Below are positions 15,873 through 49,844 of a DNA stretch of 51,471 nt, one piece after another. Numbering within the stretch: the first letter of the stretch is position 1; each line of letters opens with the position of its first letter. The DNA comes from Planctomycetia bacterium (GTDB lineage Bacteria; Planctomycetota; Planctomycetia; Pirellulales; PNKZ01). Position numbers and translations under genes: made by a program. The notes beneath the pieces are model-generated. The model saw only the letters and a program-made list of their open reading frames with translations, did no database searches and had not been told where the DNA came from. The stretch is taken from the NCBI GenBank assembly GCA_021413845.1, contig JAIOPP010000129.1, positions 1 through 51,471 on the forward strand, written 5' to 3'.

Positions 15873-15923
15873 GATTAGTTGCTCTCGCAAAGTGCTTCCT
15901 TGCGCCGCGTATCTCTCTTGCTG

Positions 15924-15952
15924 TCCACCGACCACTGACCACCGACCACTTA
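15924..15952 (-). repeat. Heptamer tandem repeat after the DUF444 stop codon
   Basis: Read on the minus strand, the stop codon TAA is followed at once by about four tandem units of GTGGTCR (GTGGTCG, GTGGTCA, GTGGTCG, then degenerate GTGGACA). Related tandem heptamers occur after stop codons at four other loci in the window. The repeat includes the last bases of the DUF444 gene. Confidence 0.8.
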
Positions 15953-19886: not shown

Positions 19887-19990
19887 GGGGAAGTGGTCAG
19901 TGGTCGGTGTTCAGTGGTCAGTTGAAGATAAGCCCCCGTCATAGACATCCGAAAACTGACCACCGACCACTGATCACCGACCACTTCCCC
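19887..19990. repeat. 104-bp stem-loop built from heptamer repeats
   Basis: Two 37-bp arms, 19887-19923 and 19954-19990, are imperfect inverted repeats made of GTGGTCR heptamers (GTGGTCA, GTGGTCG, GTGTTCA, GTGGTCA on one arm; the complement on the other), with a 30-bp loop. It begins 3 bp after the stop codon of the response regulator on the minus strand, so it could serve as a bulky 3'-end structure for that mRNA. Confidence 0.8.
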
Positions 19991-26290: not shown

Positions 26291-26914
26291 TTAGAAGCCG
26301 ATCGGCTGCGGCGGCTTGGGGCCTTTTTCTTTGACTAGCTTGCTGATCGCTTTAAACTCCGGCGTGCCGGAGCGTTCGCACCATTCGAAGAGGGCCGCTT
26401 CCGTGGTGGTGAGCGTCGCGCCGGAGGAGTCGAGTCGGCGCAAGGCCGTCTCGCGATCGAGGTCGAAGCGCGAGCCGACGGCATCGACGGCGATGAACAC
26501 GCGGAAGCCGTGCGTCATCAGATCGAAAGCCGTTTGCTGCACGCAGACATGCGCTTCGATGCCGACGAGCAAAACCTTGTGAATGCCCCGCTCGATCCAC
26601 TCTCGAAACAGCGCGCCGCACTCGCCGCAACTGAATGCCGTCTTGCTCGGGATCGACGAAAACTTCTCGGCCAGCTCCGGAACGGTCGGGCCGAGCCCTT
26701 GCGGATATTGCTCGGTTGCGGCCTTGGCGACTTGCAAGATGTCGGCCCCATCGATCAGGCGACGGATGTTCCAAATGATGCGGGCATGATCCGGCACCAG
26801 CGTGATGAGCTTCCCCTGCACGTCGACCACGAGCAAGCCGGTATCGTCGGCCGACATCAGTTCGGGGCTGCGTGATAAGGGGCGATTTTGCGATGCTTCG
26901 GAGGGGGCGTTCAT
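26291..26914 (-). CDS. Isochorismatase-family cysteine hydrolase
   Basis: 207 residues. Alpha/beta hydrolase-like isochorismatase superfamily with the D-K-C triad: Asp in GLLVVDVQGKL, Lys in IPSKTAFSC and Cys in GIEAHVCVQQTAFDL. The C-terminal extension (GTPEFKAISKLVKEK) is common in the YcaC-like subgroup; those enzymes act on amides or unknown compounds, and true isochorismatase activity is not implied. The ATG at 26914 lacks a good Shine-Dalgarno; an internal ATG at 26857 (MSADDTGLL) would start right at the conserved domain, so the first 19 residues are uncertain. Probably cotranscribed with the aminotransferase downstream. Upstream is a repeat element. Confidence 0.92.
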   Translation of the reverse strand: MNAPSEASQNRPLSRSPELMSADDTGLLVVDVQGKLITLVPDHARIIWNIRRLIDGADILQVAKAATEQYPQGLGPTVPELAEKFSSIPSKTAFSCGECGALFREWIERGIHKVLLVGIEAHVCVQQTAFDLMTHGFRVFIAVDAVGSRFDLDRETALRRLDSSGATLTTTEAALFEWCERSGTPEFKAISKLVKEKGPKPPQPIGF

Positions 26915-26954: not shown

Positions 26955-27133
26955 GCCAAAGTAGTAGGCACGTTCCACGTGCCGTAACCACTTGCGCATT
27001 CGGAGCGAGAAGTACGATTGCAAAACGTTCGATGCTCCTTCAATAGCCCCTGATGCATATCTGAGGCGCGACCGCGTTGATCGTTCGCAGCCGTTCGTGG
27101 CGGACGGCACGTGGAACGTGCCTGCTATTTTGG
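26955..27133. repeat. Inverted-repeat-bounded intergenic element, copy 1
   Basis: Left end 26955-26991 and right end 27096-27133 are inverted repeats of about 37 bp (nearly identical apart from a few bases). Each end contains the 17-bp hairpin GGCACGTTCCACGTGCC (26967-26983 and, inverted, 27106-27122). The interior ~100 bp holds a copy of a second palindromic repeat. A second copy is at 48846-49014. Size and structure resemble a MITE or a paired REP element; there is no transposase. Confidence 0.82.
27039..27071. repeat. GATGCATATC palindrome family, copy A (degenerate)
   Basis: TTCAATAGCC then CCTGATGCATATCTGAGG and GCGCGA. Shares TTCAATAGCC, GATGCATATC and the trailing CGCGA with the copy at 29248-29282. 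Its stem has lost perfect pairing. Nested within the larger inverted-repeat element. Confidence 0.65.
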
Positions 27134-27792
27134 CCGGCGCAGGGCACGGCCGTATTCGCATCGCTTGCGACTTAGAAAACATTCGTGCGTCGTCGCCCGG
27201 GTTCGGTCGGGCATCTTGTCGAACGTACTCTGCGCAAAGCATTGCAACCCGGCCGGGCTGCTCGGAGTTAGCTCGCGAGCAACCGGTTGGCCCGAGCGAC
27301 GACGCACCGGACGACACCCCTGCCGAGCGAAGTCCTCTCCCCGGTTTGCAACCCCGAGAAGAGCTTCGGGCGATTCGATCCGCGGTTTACCTCTTCGTCG
27401 GAAGAAGCAGCCCATCGCGCACCTCGCCTGAGCGCGCGACGACCGAGGATCGCGAAGCACGGAGCGTTCGGTTAAGTAAACGCTGCGCACTCCGCAGGCC
27501 GGAAGGAGACGCCGAGTTGTTTTCAAGCAACGCGGTCGACCGGCGTCGCGACGGACCGACAATCAAGTCGATTCGGTTCGAGCCCGGGCGGCGACAAGCG
27601 GCGCGGCCCCGGCACGAACGTCCCATCGCGATTCGTCGTCGCCTCGTTTCGCATGCATGCAACCGGCGACGTGTCGAAACCTATCAAGGTCGGAGTCGTG
27701 CCCCCTTCACACGGAGCTCAACATCGCACTTCGCCGGCTGAAATTCAACGCGAAGATTTAGGCCAAGGAAACGCAGCTTCCGAGCGCTCGCC
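27134..27792. other. Gene-free stretch, about 660 bp
   Basis: GC-rich DNA without a credible gene. Open frames of 145-249 codons on both strands have Arg/Cys/Ser-rich, repetitive, unrecognisable translations and no ribosome-binding sites. No tRNA, RNase P, tmRNA or riboswitch signature was found. Many short GC palindromes are present. It may be decayed genes or an unrecognised RNA. Confidence 0.5.
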
Positions 27793-48037: not shown

Positions 48038-48765
48038 CGACGAATCGGGCCGCTTTGCGAAACGCGGCCGGCGAAGAATTCTCCACGGAAACATTGGCCG
48101 GGTTGCGTGCACGGTTCGATGTCGTCGTGCAAGAGATCACGGTCGCGGGCCGAACTTGGAAGCTCGCGCGACCGCGCTCGGCCGATGCGCTGATCGACGA
48201 AGAAGCCTTTCAACGCGACGGACGCATTCCGTATTGGGCCGATGTGTGGACGTCGTCGCAGACGCTTGCCGAGGAGCTGGCGAAACGGGTCGGCGGAGAC
48301 GGCCCGAGCGATGAGCCGCGCAGCGGCCGGCTGTTGGAGCTAGGGTGCGGCATCGGGTTCTCGTCGCTCGTAGCGGCGGGCTTGGGATACGACGTCACGG
48401 CGACCGATTACTATCCCGAGGCGCTCGAGTTCGTGGCGGCCAATGCCGAGCTGAACGGGCTTGCCAACATCACGACGCGGCATCTCGATTGGCGTGCGCC
48501 GGCCGACGATCTCGGCCTGTTCGACGTCGTCGCCGCGGCCGACGTGCTGTATGAACGACCGAACGTGCCGCTTGTCGCGGCGCTGTTCGCGAAGTATATG
48601 CGGCCCGACGGAGTCGGCTATTGTTCCGACCCGGAGCGGCGCGTGGCTTCGAGCTTCGCCGACGAGTGCCGCCGGCTCGGCCTCACCGTGAACTGCTTCA
48701 TCCGCGCCACGCGAGAAGCGGACGGAGCGGCGAAGGATATCGATTGGTATGTGGTGAAGAGATAG
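48034..48765 (+). CDS. Class I SAM-dependent methyltransferase (METTL/Methyltransf_16-like)
   Basis: 243 residues from ATG 48034, overlapping the thioesterase stop by 4 bp (ATGA). Motifs: PYWADVWTSSQTLAEELA, a family block where W and S position the substrate; SAM-binding LLELGCGIGFSSLVAAGLG; acidic end of strand 2 in VTATDYYPEALEF; and motif IV in LFDVVAAADVLYERPNVPL. These point to the nicotinamide/lysine-methyltransferase-like group (Methyltransf_16/23), often acting on proteins; substrate unknown. Its stop is followed at once by a heptamer repeat and two palindromic repeat elements. Confidence 0.9.
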   Translation: MTTNRAALRNAAGEEFSTETLAGLRARFDVVVQEITVAGRTWKLARPRSADALIDEEAFQRDGRIPYWADVWTSSQTLAEELAKRVGGDGPSDEPRSGRLLELGCGIGFSSLVAAGLGYDVTATDYYPEALEFVAANAELNGLANITTRHLDWRAPADDLGLFDVVAAADVLYERPNVPLVAALFAKYMRPDGVGYCSDPERRVASSFADECRRLGLTVNCFIRATREADGAAKDIDWYVVKR

Positions 48766-48845: not shown

Positions 48846-49014
48846 GGAAAGTAGTAGGCACGTTCCACGTGCCGTAACCACAGGCGACTTCGGACAGCGC
48901 GACACGACTCCATCGCCGAATGGTGCATGGGGCGGACGGTACAAGTGGCAAGCTGTGCATGTCGCCGAACGACGCATGTGGCGGACGGCACGTGGAACGT
49001 GCCTGCTACTTGGG
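48846..49014. repeat. Inverted-repeat-bounded intergenic element, copy 2
   Basis: Left end GAAAGTAGTAGGCACG... from 48847 and right end to about 49013 are inverted repeats, each with the 17-bp hairpin GGCACGTTCCACGTGCC (48857-48873; inverted at 48987-49003). Matches copy 1 (26955-27133) at both ends, while the interiors differ. Just inside the right end, 48911-48957 and 48962-49008 are an imperfect tandem duplication of the right-end sequence (CGCCGAAYGRYGCATG and GGCGGACGG shared). No coding frame. Confidence 0.82.
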
Positions 49015-49019
49015 TTCGC

Positions 49020-49844
49020 CTATTGGCGTAGTCCCGCGGCGCGCATCAAATCCGCCGTCGCTTGATACGCTTCTTCGACCCATTCGACGATCTTGTCCGG
49101 CTCCGGCGAGTATTCGAGTTCGATCGAGATCGTGCCGTCGATTTCGAGGTCTTTGATTTCGCGTAGGTACGGCTCGAACGGCACCACGCCTCGGCCCGGC
49201 GGAAGGTCGCCGTGCTTGAGACCGTCGCAATCGGAGATATGCACGTGGCCTGCGCGGCCCCGCAGGCGACGCAGCTCGCGCGGTTGCACGCCGGAGAGGA
49301 CGAGATGCGAGATGTCGATGTTGGCCTTCACGGCCGGCGAGGCAACGTCGTCGAGCAGGCGGTCGATCGTGTCGAGGTCTTTCACCAGCGAAAGCTCGAA
49401 CGGCTCAAGCTCGACGACGATTTCGACATTCCGTTCGGCAGCGTAGGCGCCGAGCTCGCGACAGGCTTGCACGGCCCAACGCCACTGCTCGGCCGGCGGA
49501 ATCACTTCGCGATTCCAAATGTATTCGCCGATGACGAGCAGAATGTTCTTCGCGCGGTATTCGGCGGCGAGATCGAGATAGCGCTTCACGCGCGCGAGAT
49601 GGAACCTGCGCACGCTCGGGTTCAAGTCGATCAAGCCGACGGCGACGCAACAGAGCGACACGATCGGCAACTCGAGTCTGGCGCATTCCGCGGCAATGCT
49701 CAGCCGCTCGGCATCGGGCATGTCGAGCGGATCGACGAACAAGTCGACCGTGTCGAAACCGATCTCCTTCGTTTTGCGTAAGCCGAAGGAAGTCGGTTGC
49801 CCGGCTTGAACCCAAGCGGAATTAATCAGGCCGAGGTGCATCAT
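49020..49844 (-). CDS. Sugar phosphate isomerase/epimerase-like TIM-barrel protein (AP endonuclease 2 family)
   Basis: 274 residues. Xylose-isomerase-like TIM barrel: LGLINSAWVQAGQPTSFG, VDLFVDPLDMPDAERL, NILLVIGEYIWNRE, VEIVVELEPFELSLV with a metal-binding Glu, ANIDISHLVLSGVQP (Asp-His pair), GHVHISDCDGLKHGDLPPGRG, and the last Glu in TISIELEYSPEPD. The metal-binding set E-D-H-H-E looks complete, so it is likely an active epimerase/isomerase; substrate unknown. Such genes are frequent in planctomycetes, often near Gfo/Idh/MocA genes (one is about 9 kb away). Its 3' end abuts repeat element copy 2. Confidence 0.92.
   Translation of the reverse strand: MMHLGLINSAWVQAGQPTSFGLRKTKEIGFDTVDLFVDPLDMPDAERLSIAAECARLELPIVSLCCVAVGLIDLNPSVRRFHLARVKRYLDLAAEYRAKNILLVIGEYIWNREVIPPAEQWRWAVQACRELGAYAAERNVEIVVELEPFELSLVKDLDTIDRLLDDVASPAVKANIDISHLVLSGVQPRELRRLRGRAGHVHISDCDGLKHGDLPPGRGVVPFEPYLREIKDLEIDGTISIELEYSPEPDKIVEWVEEAYQATADLMRAAGLRQ

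Follow-up and report, generated by a model that had tools for sequence, protein, structure and literature searches.

A REPIN family with a linked RAYT gene in a Planctomycetia genome, joined at many copies to a predicted structured RNA

The REPINs or BIMEs of Pseudomonas fluorescens and Escherichia coli are inverted doublets of GTAG-tagged hairpins with stereotyped spacing, which fold as single-stranded DNA into one long hairpin, have expanded in a species-specific manner and are accompanied by a RAYT gene that lies elsewhere in the genome between copies of the same REP. The elements described here, from a member of the Planctomycetia, share all of these properties. They differ in their stem, GGCACGT with loop TCC, and in being mostly longer units (the REP-to-REP spacings given for P. 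fluorescens are 71 and 110 bp; PMC3116915), and 39 of 88 copies among the matches listed lie beside a predicted structured core of 550-630 bp or a piece of one. The REPtron, a TnpA-REP gene together with its flanking REPs, is the second point of likeness: both have the HUH-Y1 fold with NHVH, WQ and Tyr motifs, a gene flanked on either side by REP pairs, and a separate RAYT for each REP type (A and B in this genome).

Within the same superphylum, PVC, GTAG REPs have been reported in Rhodopirellula baltica, a planctomycete, and in O. terrae (PMC3733652), and these share with the present family the tag and a short loop, a likeness of description rather than of consensus sequences. The annotated elements were first put forward as a possible undescribed planctomycete repeat family, a claim that the R. 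baltica report qualifies for GTAG REPs in general, and that agrees with the near-confinement of the exact end to this genome (see below). The family with its cognate RAYT is a new family of a known kind, compared with the R. baltica GTAG REPs by description only, and offers a clean RAYT-REP pairing in a phylum in which REPs have been little studied.

The DNA analysed, hereafter the window, is a stretch of 51,471 nt that forms the whole of contig C129 in a 7.08-Mb draft genome of 167 contigs. It carries two copies of the element (Table 1), whose coordinates run from AAA-GTAG through three bases past the inverted tag. The hairpin GGCACGTTCCACGTGCC stands at either end of both copies, inverted to each other. 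Between the copies, the left ends are 91% identical over 47 nt and the right ends 95% identical over 37 nt, which bears out the shared, inverted, hairpin-bearing ends of the first-pass annotation; the two ends of one copy are nevertheless not alike, the left reading GTAGTAGG..CCGTAACCAC and the right GTAGCAGG (ATAGCAGG in copy 1)..CCGTCCGCCAC. Conservation is not confined to the 17-bp hairpin, as roughly 37 nt are conserved, including the GTAG tag and an inner GTAACCAC/GTCCGCCAC. Folded as single-stranded DNA, each copy forms one long hairpin that beats 200 of 200 shuffles (z = -7.0 and -7.3 for copies 1 and 2).

Table 1. Positions of the repeat elements, the core repeat and the two RAYT genes; positions without a contig name refer to the window
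Feature	Position	Strand	Remarks
REPIN copy 1 (AAA-GTAG ... CTAT-TTT)	26958..27131		right tag degenerate (CTAT)
Copy 1 left REP: GTAG tag, TA, stem GGCACGT / loop TCC / ACGTGCC	26961..26983	+	parsed likewise at RAYT-A
Copy 1 right REP, inverted, ATAG instead of GTAG	27106..27128	-	
Composite unit at copy 1: REPIN + core, 809 bp	26958..27766		no right-hand REPIN, unlike most young copies
Core repeat adjoining copy 1, ~630 bp, apparently non-coding	27137..27766	-	predicted structured RNA fold
REPIN copy 2	48848..49012		site without element in three congeners
Copy 2 left REP (GTAG + hairpin)	48851..48873	+	
Copy 2 right REP, inverted	48987..49009	-	
RAYT-A	C67:63956-64552		between two type A elements
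RAYT-B (locus L058)	C167:20720-21304		66% identical paralogue of RAYT-A, among type B GGCACGCTCCGCGTGCC ends

The interiors had been said to differ, and between copies 1 and 2 they do. Copy 1 nevertheless falls in a common length class of the family (outer 20-mers 159-164 apart), and we read its interior as holding an internal palindrome that recurs in other copies, whereas the interior of copy 2 can be read as a short-class element whose right half is repeated in tandem in decayed form. REPs inside other palindromes have been reported (PMC3733652). Both copies are intergenic, as annotated. An isochorismatase-family gene on the minus strand (26291-26914) has copy 1 about 43 bp upstream of its ATG, and copy 2 lies between a methyltransferase gene ending at 48765 and a convergent xylose-isomerase-like gene ending at 49020, 7 bp from the latter.

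Searching the 7.08-Mb genome with the 20-nt end pattern TAGGCACGTTCCACGTGCCG (two mismatches or fewer) gave 197 matches (100 + 97), and the same pattern read backwards as a control gave none, so the end pattern is not due to chance and the genome holds far more than the two copies first seen. The ends collected from the fetched loci numbered at least 195 with full context, plus one that was cut, and were assigned to type A (176) or to a sister type B (18), with one tie. Among the matches listed, 176 of 195 ends are paired head to head with another end at a distance of 60-250 bp, the orientation described as the commonest dimer in most GTAG families of PMC3733652. At least 88 distinct inverted pairs were resolved, of which 79 are AA, 7 mixed and 2 BB among the matches listed; one of the seven A-B hybrids (L010) hangs on a tie. 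Spacing is conserved in that the pairs cluster in set length classes near 101, 160 and 175, the outer 20-mers being 100-103 apart in 25 and 159-164 apart in 24 of the 88 listed pairs, and unit size across the family is about 95-225 bp.

The usual end is YAAA-GTAG-YA-GGCACGT-TCC-ACGTGCC; among 174 ends, 157 carry the tag GTAG and 11 carry GTTG. Outside GTAG come three A's (75-90%) and a C or T at -4 (80%), and conservation is gone from -5; the element boundary is at the YAAA/GTAG junction, with conservation fading 4-5 nt beyond GTAG. Alignment for target-site duplications, the check that the first-pass annotation had proposed, found no flanking direct repeats (k = 2-8) above permutation in 87 elements, the nearest setting (3 nt, offset 1) giving 7 observed against 4.1 expected (p 0.06). 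Absence of such duplications is expected from a Y1 enzyme and not from most DDE elements. We regard it as confirmed that copies 1 and 2 belong to a REPIN family of about 90 elements built of inverted GTAG-tagged REP pairs.

A search of the genome with the Pfam Y1_Tnp profile found six loci. RAYT-A scores 25.8 bits against this profile, above the cut-off of 23, and its gene stands between two elements with the same hairpin, so that the hairpin-sharing RAYT/Y1 transposase which the annotation had proposed to look for is present in the genome. Each RAYT has its own REP type, A ends occurring at RAYT-A and B ends at RAYT-B. Against the NCBIfam model REP_Tyr_transpos (NF047646) RAYT-A reaches E = 1.2e-17 and 64.2 bits, below the curated cut-off of 80, which is the threshold of one model and not a biological feature; all 20 aligned relatives of RAYT-A match the model at E <= 0.001, and the NHVH (HUH), WQ, Tyr and Asn residues are invariant in 20 of 20 aligned RAYT sequences. 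The AlphaFold2 model of RAYT-A (pLDDT 90.8) has as its best PDB match by Foldseek 4er8, the E. coli RAYT with bound REP hairpin (E = 2.8e-6), although the TM scores are only 0.42/0.50, the rmsd is 9.6 and aligned identity, at only 15%, sets the protein apart from E. coli TnpA-REP. Compared by motif only with Table 1 of PMC6006769, NHVH, WQ and YIAENP appear nearest to subclass 2.4 or 2.7 and not to class 3, the class given there for Planctomycetes. Many copies, stereotyped pair spacing, missing target-site duplications and a RAYT/Y1 gene between the same hairpins together uphold the annotation's suggestion of a paired REP unit or non-autonomous element.

For comparison we used 296 genomes of the order, this one included. 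Relatives of RAYT-A (E <= 1e-20) were found in 63 of the 296, its own genome among them. The exact end (one mismatch or fewer) occurs 182 times in its own genome and once each in two others, and is absent from the other 293 sampled genomes, which include three congeners. In the three congeners the methyltransferase and isomerase genes still neighbour each other at the site of copy 2, and the element is absent; the contig of congener G042 begins there inside the methyltransferase gene. The congeneric spacers have diverged and hide the exact breakpoint, so these empty sites are not placed to the base. In congener G012 (L205) a different hairpin-like pair, GGGGTTTATCCCGGCG ... CGGGGATAAACCCCG, occupies the spacer between the two genes and is perhaps a repeat of that congener's own.

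The association of tagged hairpins with RAYT genes extends beyond this genome. We scanned 110 RAYT loci: two from this genome, 29 from the order and 79 of 80 from a genome collection, the 80 being the best of at least 382 relatives; L268, a match at a contig end, was excluded from an initial 111. Two or more GT[AG]G-tagged perfect hairpins lay within 700 nt of the RAYT at 51 of 110 loci, against 0 of 2200 shuffled sets in which dinucleotides were preserved only approximately. Tagged hairpins flanked the gene on both sides at 38 loci and did not at the other 72. The 59 loci that failed the hairpin filter include this genome's RAYT-B, whose tags are mostly GTTG/GTCG, and some of the others may likewise have other REP types. 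The loop TCC occurs in 114 of 210 hairpins at RAYT loci, with varying stems. Among the 36 loci with a parsed ORF and at least two hairpins, RAYT similarity and REP similarity are correlated (rho 0.39, 0 of 2000 permutations). This correlation, together with a common TCC loop on differing stems, indicates that a RAYT and its REP change in step, the stem being free to vary and the tag and loop mostly constant.

The family, its pair geometry and boundaries, the missing target-site duplications, the absence of the element from the orthologous site in congeners, the linked transposase and the RAYT-REP correlation are the observations from which we conclude, with high confidence, that the copies are non-autonomous REPINs whose enzyme is most likely RAYT-A, encoded elsewhere in the genome and flanked by the same element as a REPtron. 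We infer that RAYT-A probably binds, cuts and moves the REPINs in trans. Following the precedent of TnpA-REP and of IS200/IS605, RAYT-A would recognise GTAG plus hairpin on exposed single-stranded DNA, either the lagging strand or a melted duplex, cut at the tag and excise the hairpin doublet as single-stranded DNA, and the excised REPIN would be inserted elsewhere without target duplication. Terminal inverted repeats of about 30 nt around variable interiors are also what a classical DDE MITE would present, a reading that we reject as hardly credible given that no target-site duplication rises above permutation in the 87 elements, that every end is itself a GTAG-tagged hairpin and that the linked gene, lying between the same ends, encodes a Y1 enzyme. 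Slightly less remote, and still very improbable, is that the copies are host regulatory hairpins (terminators, mRNA stability elements, gyrase or IHF sites) and not mobile DNA. Their intergenic positions near gene ends or a gene start and their strong folds would fit such roles, which REPs elsewhere are described as acquiring (PMC6006769, PMC3733652), but the ends are absent from three congeners although the genes at copy 2 and their order are kept, and the species-specific expansion comes with a linked transposase.

Beyond what the first-pass annotation recorded, a much longer repeat has copy 1 as its left edge. The core region next to copy 1 matches 36 places in this genome, counting its own, and 16 of these matches are near full length; a core query against the three congeners found no core, the neighbouring gene alone being matched in one of the three. 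Two groups of core copies can be told apart, an old one (71-79% identical), to which the core at copy 1 belongs, and a young one of ten copies (85-93% identical). Among the young copies, eight are flanked by REP ends to the left and right (one is cut by a contig end), and one core copy, at L220, has no REPIN nearby. The 39 of 88 listed REPIN pairs noted above have a core segment within 160 bp. Junctions recur: on the left, seven of the ten young copies share one type of REPIN/core junction and two share another, and on the right there are two types, common to four and five copies. Relative to a reference point 3 nt beyond each outer tag, pairwise homology ends within 4 nt in 47 of 78 comparisons on the left and 12 of 45 on the right, crosses the tags in 6 of 78 and 1 of 45, and stops short of them in 25 of 78 and 32 of 45, as REPIN interiors vary. 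These sequence patterns suggest that REPIN-core-REPIN was amplified as a unit bounded by the REP tags, which RAYT may have moved. The literature searched, with incomplete coverage, held no description of such a composite. Seven intervals of about 580-675 bp between elements were considered as candidate RAYT genes; five proved to be the core, one RAYT-A (L041) and one something else (L042). Contigs C64, C92, C95, C124, C139, C33, C48 and C59 begin or end inside the core repeat or within about 30 bp of it, so the assembly is probably interrupted by these repeats, and the true copy numbers may be higher than counted.

A coding core was rejected as unlikely, with substitution rates of 0.115, 0.121 and 0.117 by codon position among the young copies, many frame-breaking indels and no common open frame. 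A known RNA family as the core was also rejected, none matching inside it: Rfam 15 at gathering cut-off gave 0 matches over the 51,471-nt window, and in L225:1200-2400 four sub-threshold Rfam matches all fell within the REPIN part and outside the core. The core alignment folds at -163 kcal/mol on the minus strand against -120 on the plus strand. Double changes occur in 36 of 162 minus-strand pairs (86 cells), compared with 11-16 pairs (14-20 cells) when the structure is slid, and for the plus-strand structure the count is 25 of 116, compared with 14.5 after shuffling and 4-8 after sliding; the structures derive from the same 16 copies as were scored, which favours these covariation counts. In a strand-neutral fold, changes of the G-U type number 44 for the minus strand against 15 for the plus, a suggestive excess in favour of an RNA read from the minus strand of the core, which is not a test of independent events because the cells are related copies. 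Among four single-copy folds one is better on the plus strand (L221, z -3.9 plus and -3.3 minus). A T-run follows the closing hairpin GTGCGTCGTCGC/GCGACGACGCAC of the core. We predict that the core is a structured RNA on the minus strand with RNA-like covariation.

Complementary CTTGT/ACAAG stretches also occur in CCGCTTGT and ACAAGATGCC, both in this genome's core and in aligned copies from genome G061, and their pairing would form a possible pseudoknot.

Large structured bacterial RNAs such as GOLLD, ROOL, OLE and HEARO are non-coding, hundreds of nucleotides long and have many paired regions. The core resembles them in its length of hundreds of nucleotides, its apparently non-coding nature and its many predicted paired regions, and differs in having no Rfam match, in being multicopy within one genome and in being joined to REPINs.

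When the 295 other genomes were searched for the core at DNA level, with the best two candidates per genome scored, the matches were of 29-35 nt alone, in three genomes; a covariance model was needed. This model, of 190 positions and built from part of the core, was run against all 296 genomes with strict filters and the best eight candidates per genome, and matched at least six times in G061 (best E 2.6e-8) and at least once in G051 (1.5e-4), which represent other genera of the family. Matches of the complementary strand to this model (27.9 bits in the window) were left out of this count; that strand also scores because the closing hairpin is nearly symmetric. What the core of this genome shares with the matches in G061 and G051 comes down mainly to its closing hairpin plus some short motifs. 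Five of six G061 copies align mutually over about 350-660 nt, L341 (24.3 bits) has no BLAST alignment with the other G061 copies, and the single G051 match aligns poorly outside the closing hairpin. A fold of the mixed alignment, with weak and wrong-strand rows included, kept only 12 pairs, 9 of them with double changes. Beside the G061 copies there were no GT[AGT]G-tagged hairpin pairs, one lone tagged hairpin lying inside L330, and G061 (75% complete) and G051 gave no RAYT match at E <= 1e-20. On account of these matches without flanking tagged pairs or a RAYT match, the core is probably older than its link to REPINs, as judged from sequence, and it may spread by its own means.

Two readings of the composite have to be weighed. 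That RAYT-A mobilises REPIN-core-REPIN units of about 0.8-1.0 kb, with a structured-RNA core, supplements and does not replace the REPIN/RAYT-A explanation, and we are evenly divided on it. The 16 near-full core copies, the frequency of core segments beside listed REPIN pairs, the REP ends and common junctions of most young copies and the homology ending near the outer tags all speak for it; the comparisons that stop short of the tags, more frequent on the right, speak against it, as do the core without a REPIN at L220 and the model matches in G061, which gave no RAYT match at E <= 1e-20 and is 75% complete. The copies in G061 without tagged pairs beside them, the match in G051 and the L220 copy would be accommodated if the core were a mobile or amplified structured-RNA element in its own right, at whose edges REPINs hitchhike or insert preferentially. 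This we hold to be a serious but somewhat doubtful reading, since most young copies in this genome share REPIN/core junctions in place of independent ones, and an inspection confined to the ORFs of two loci gave neither a protein nor a terminal repeat for an autonomous mechanism. A history that draws on both, in which an older multicopy RNA family of about 600 nt was captured between REPINs and then amplified, RAYT moving a cargo several-fold the length of a REPIN, is tentative and falls somewhat short of an even prospect.

The composite with its predicted structured core is the part that lifts the finding above an ordinary REPIN family. If RAYTs do mobilise REPIN-flanked cargo, then enzymes supposed to be domesticated would act as composite-element transposases do, on a cargo that would itself be a new structured RNA present in many copies.

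Elsewhere in the window, another inverted repeat, made of GACCACTGACC units, lies at 19887-19990, with related copies at 15921-15951 and 19942-19986.
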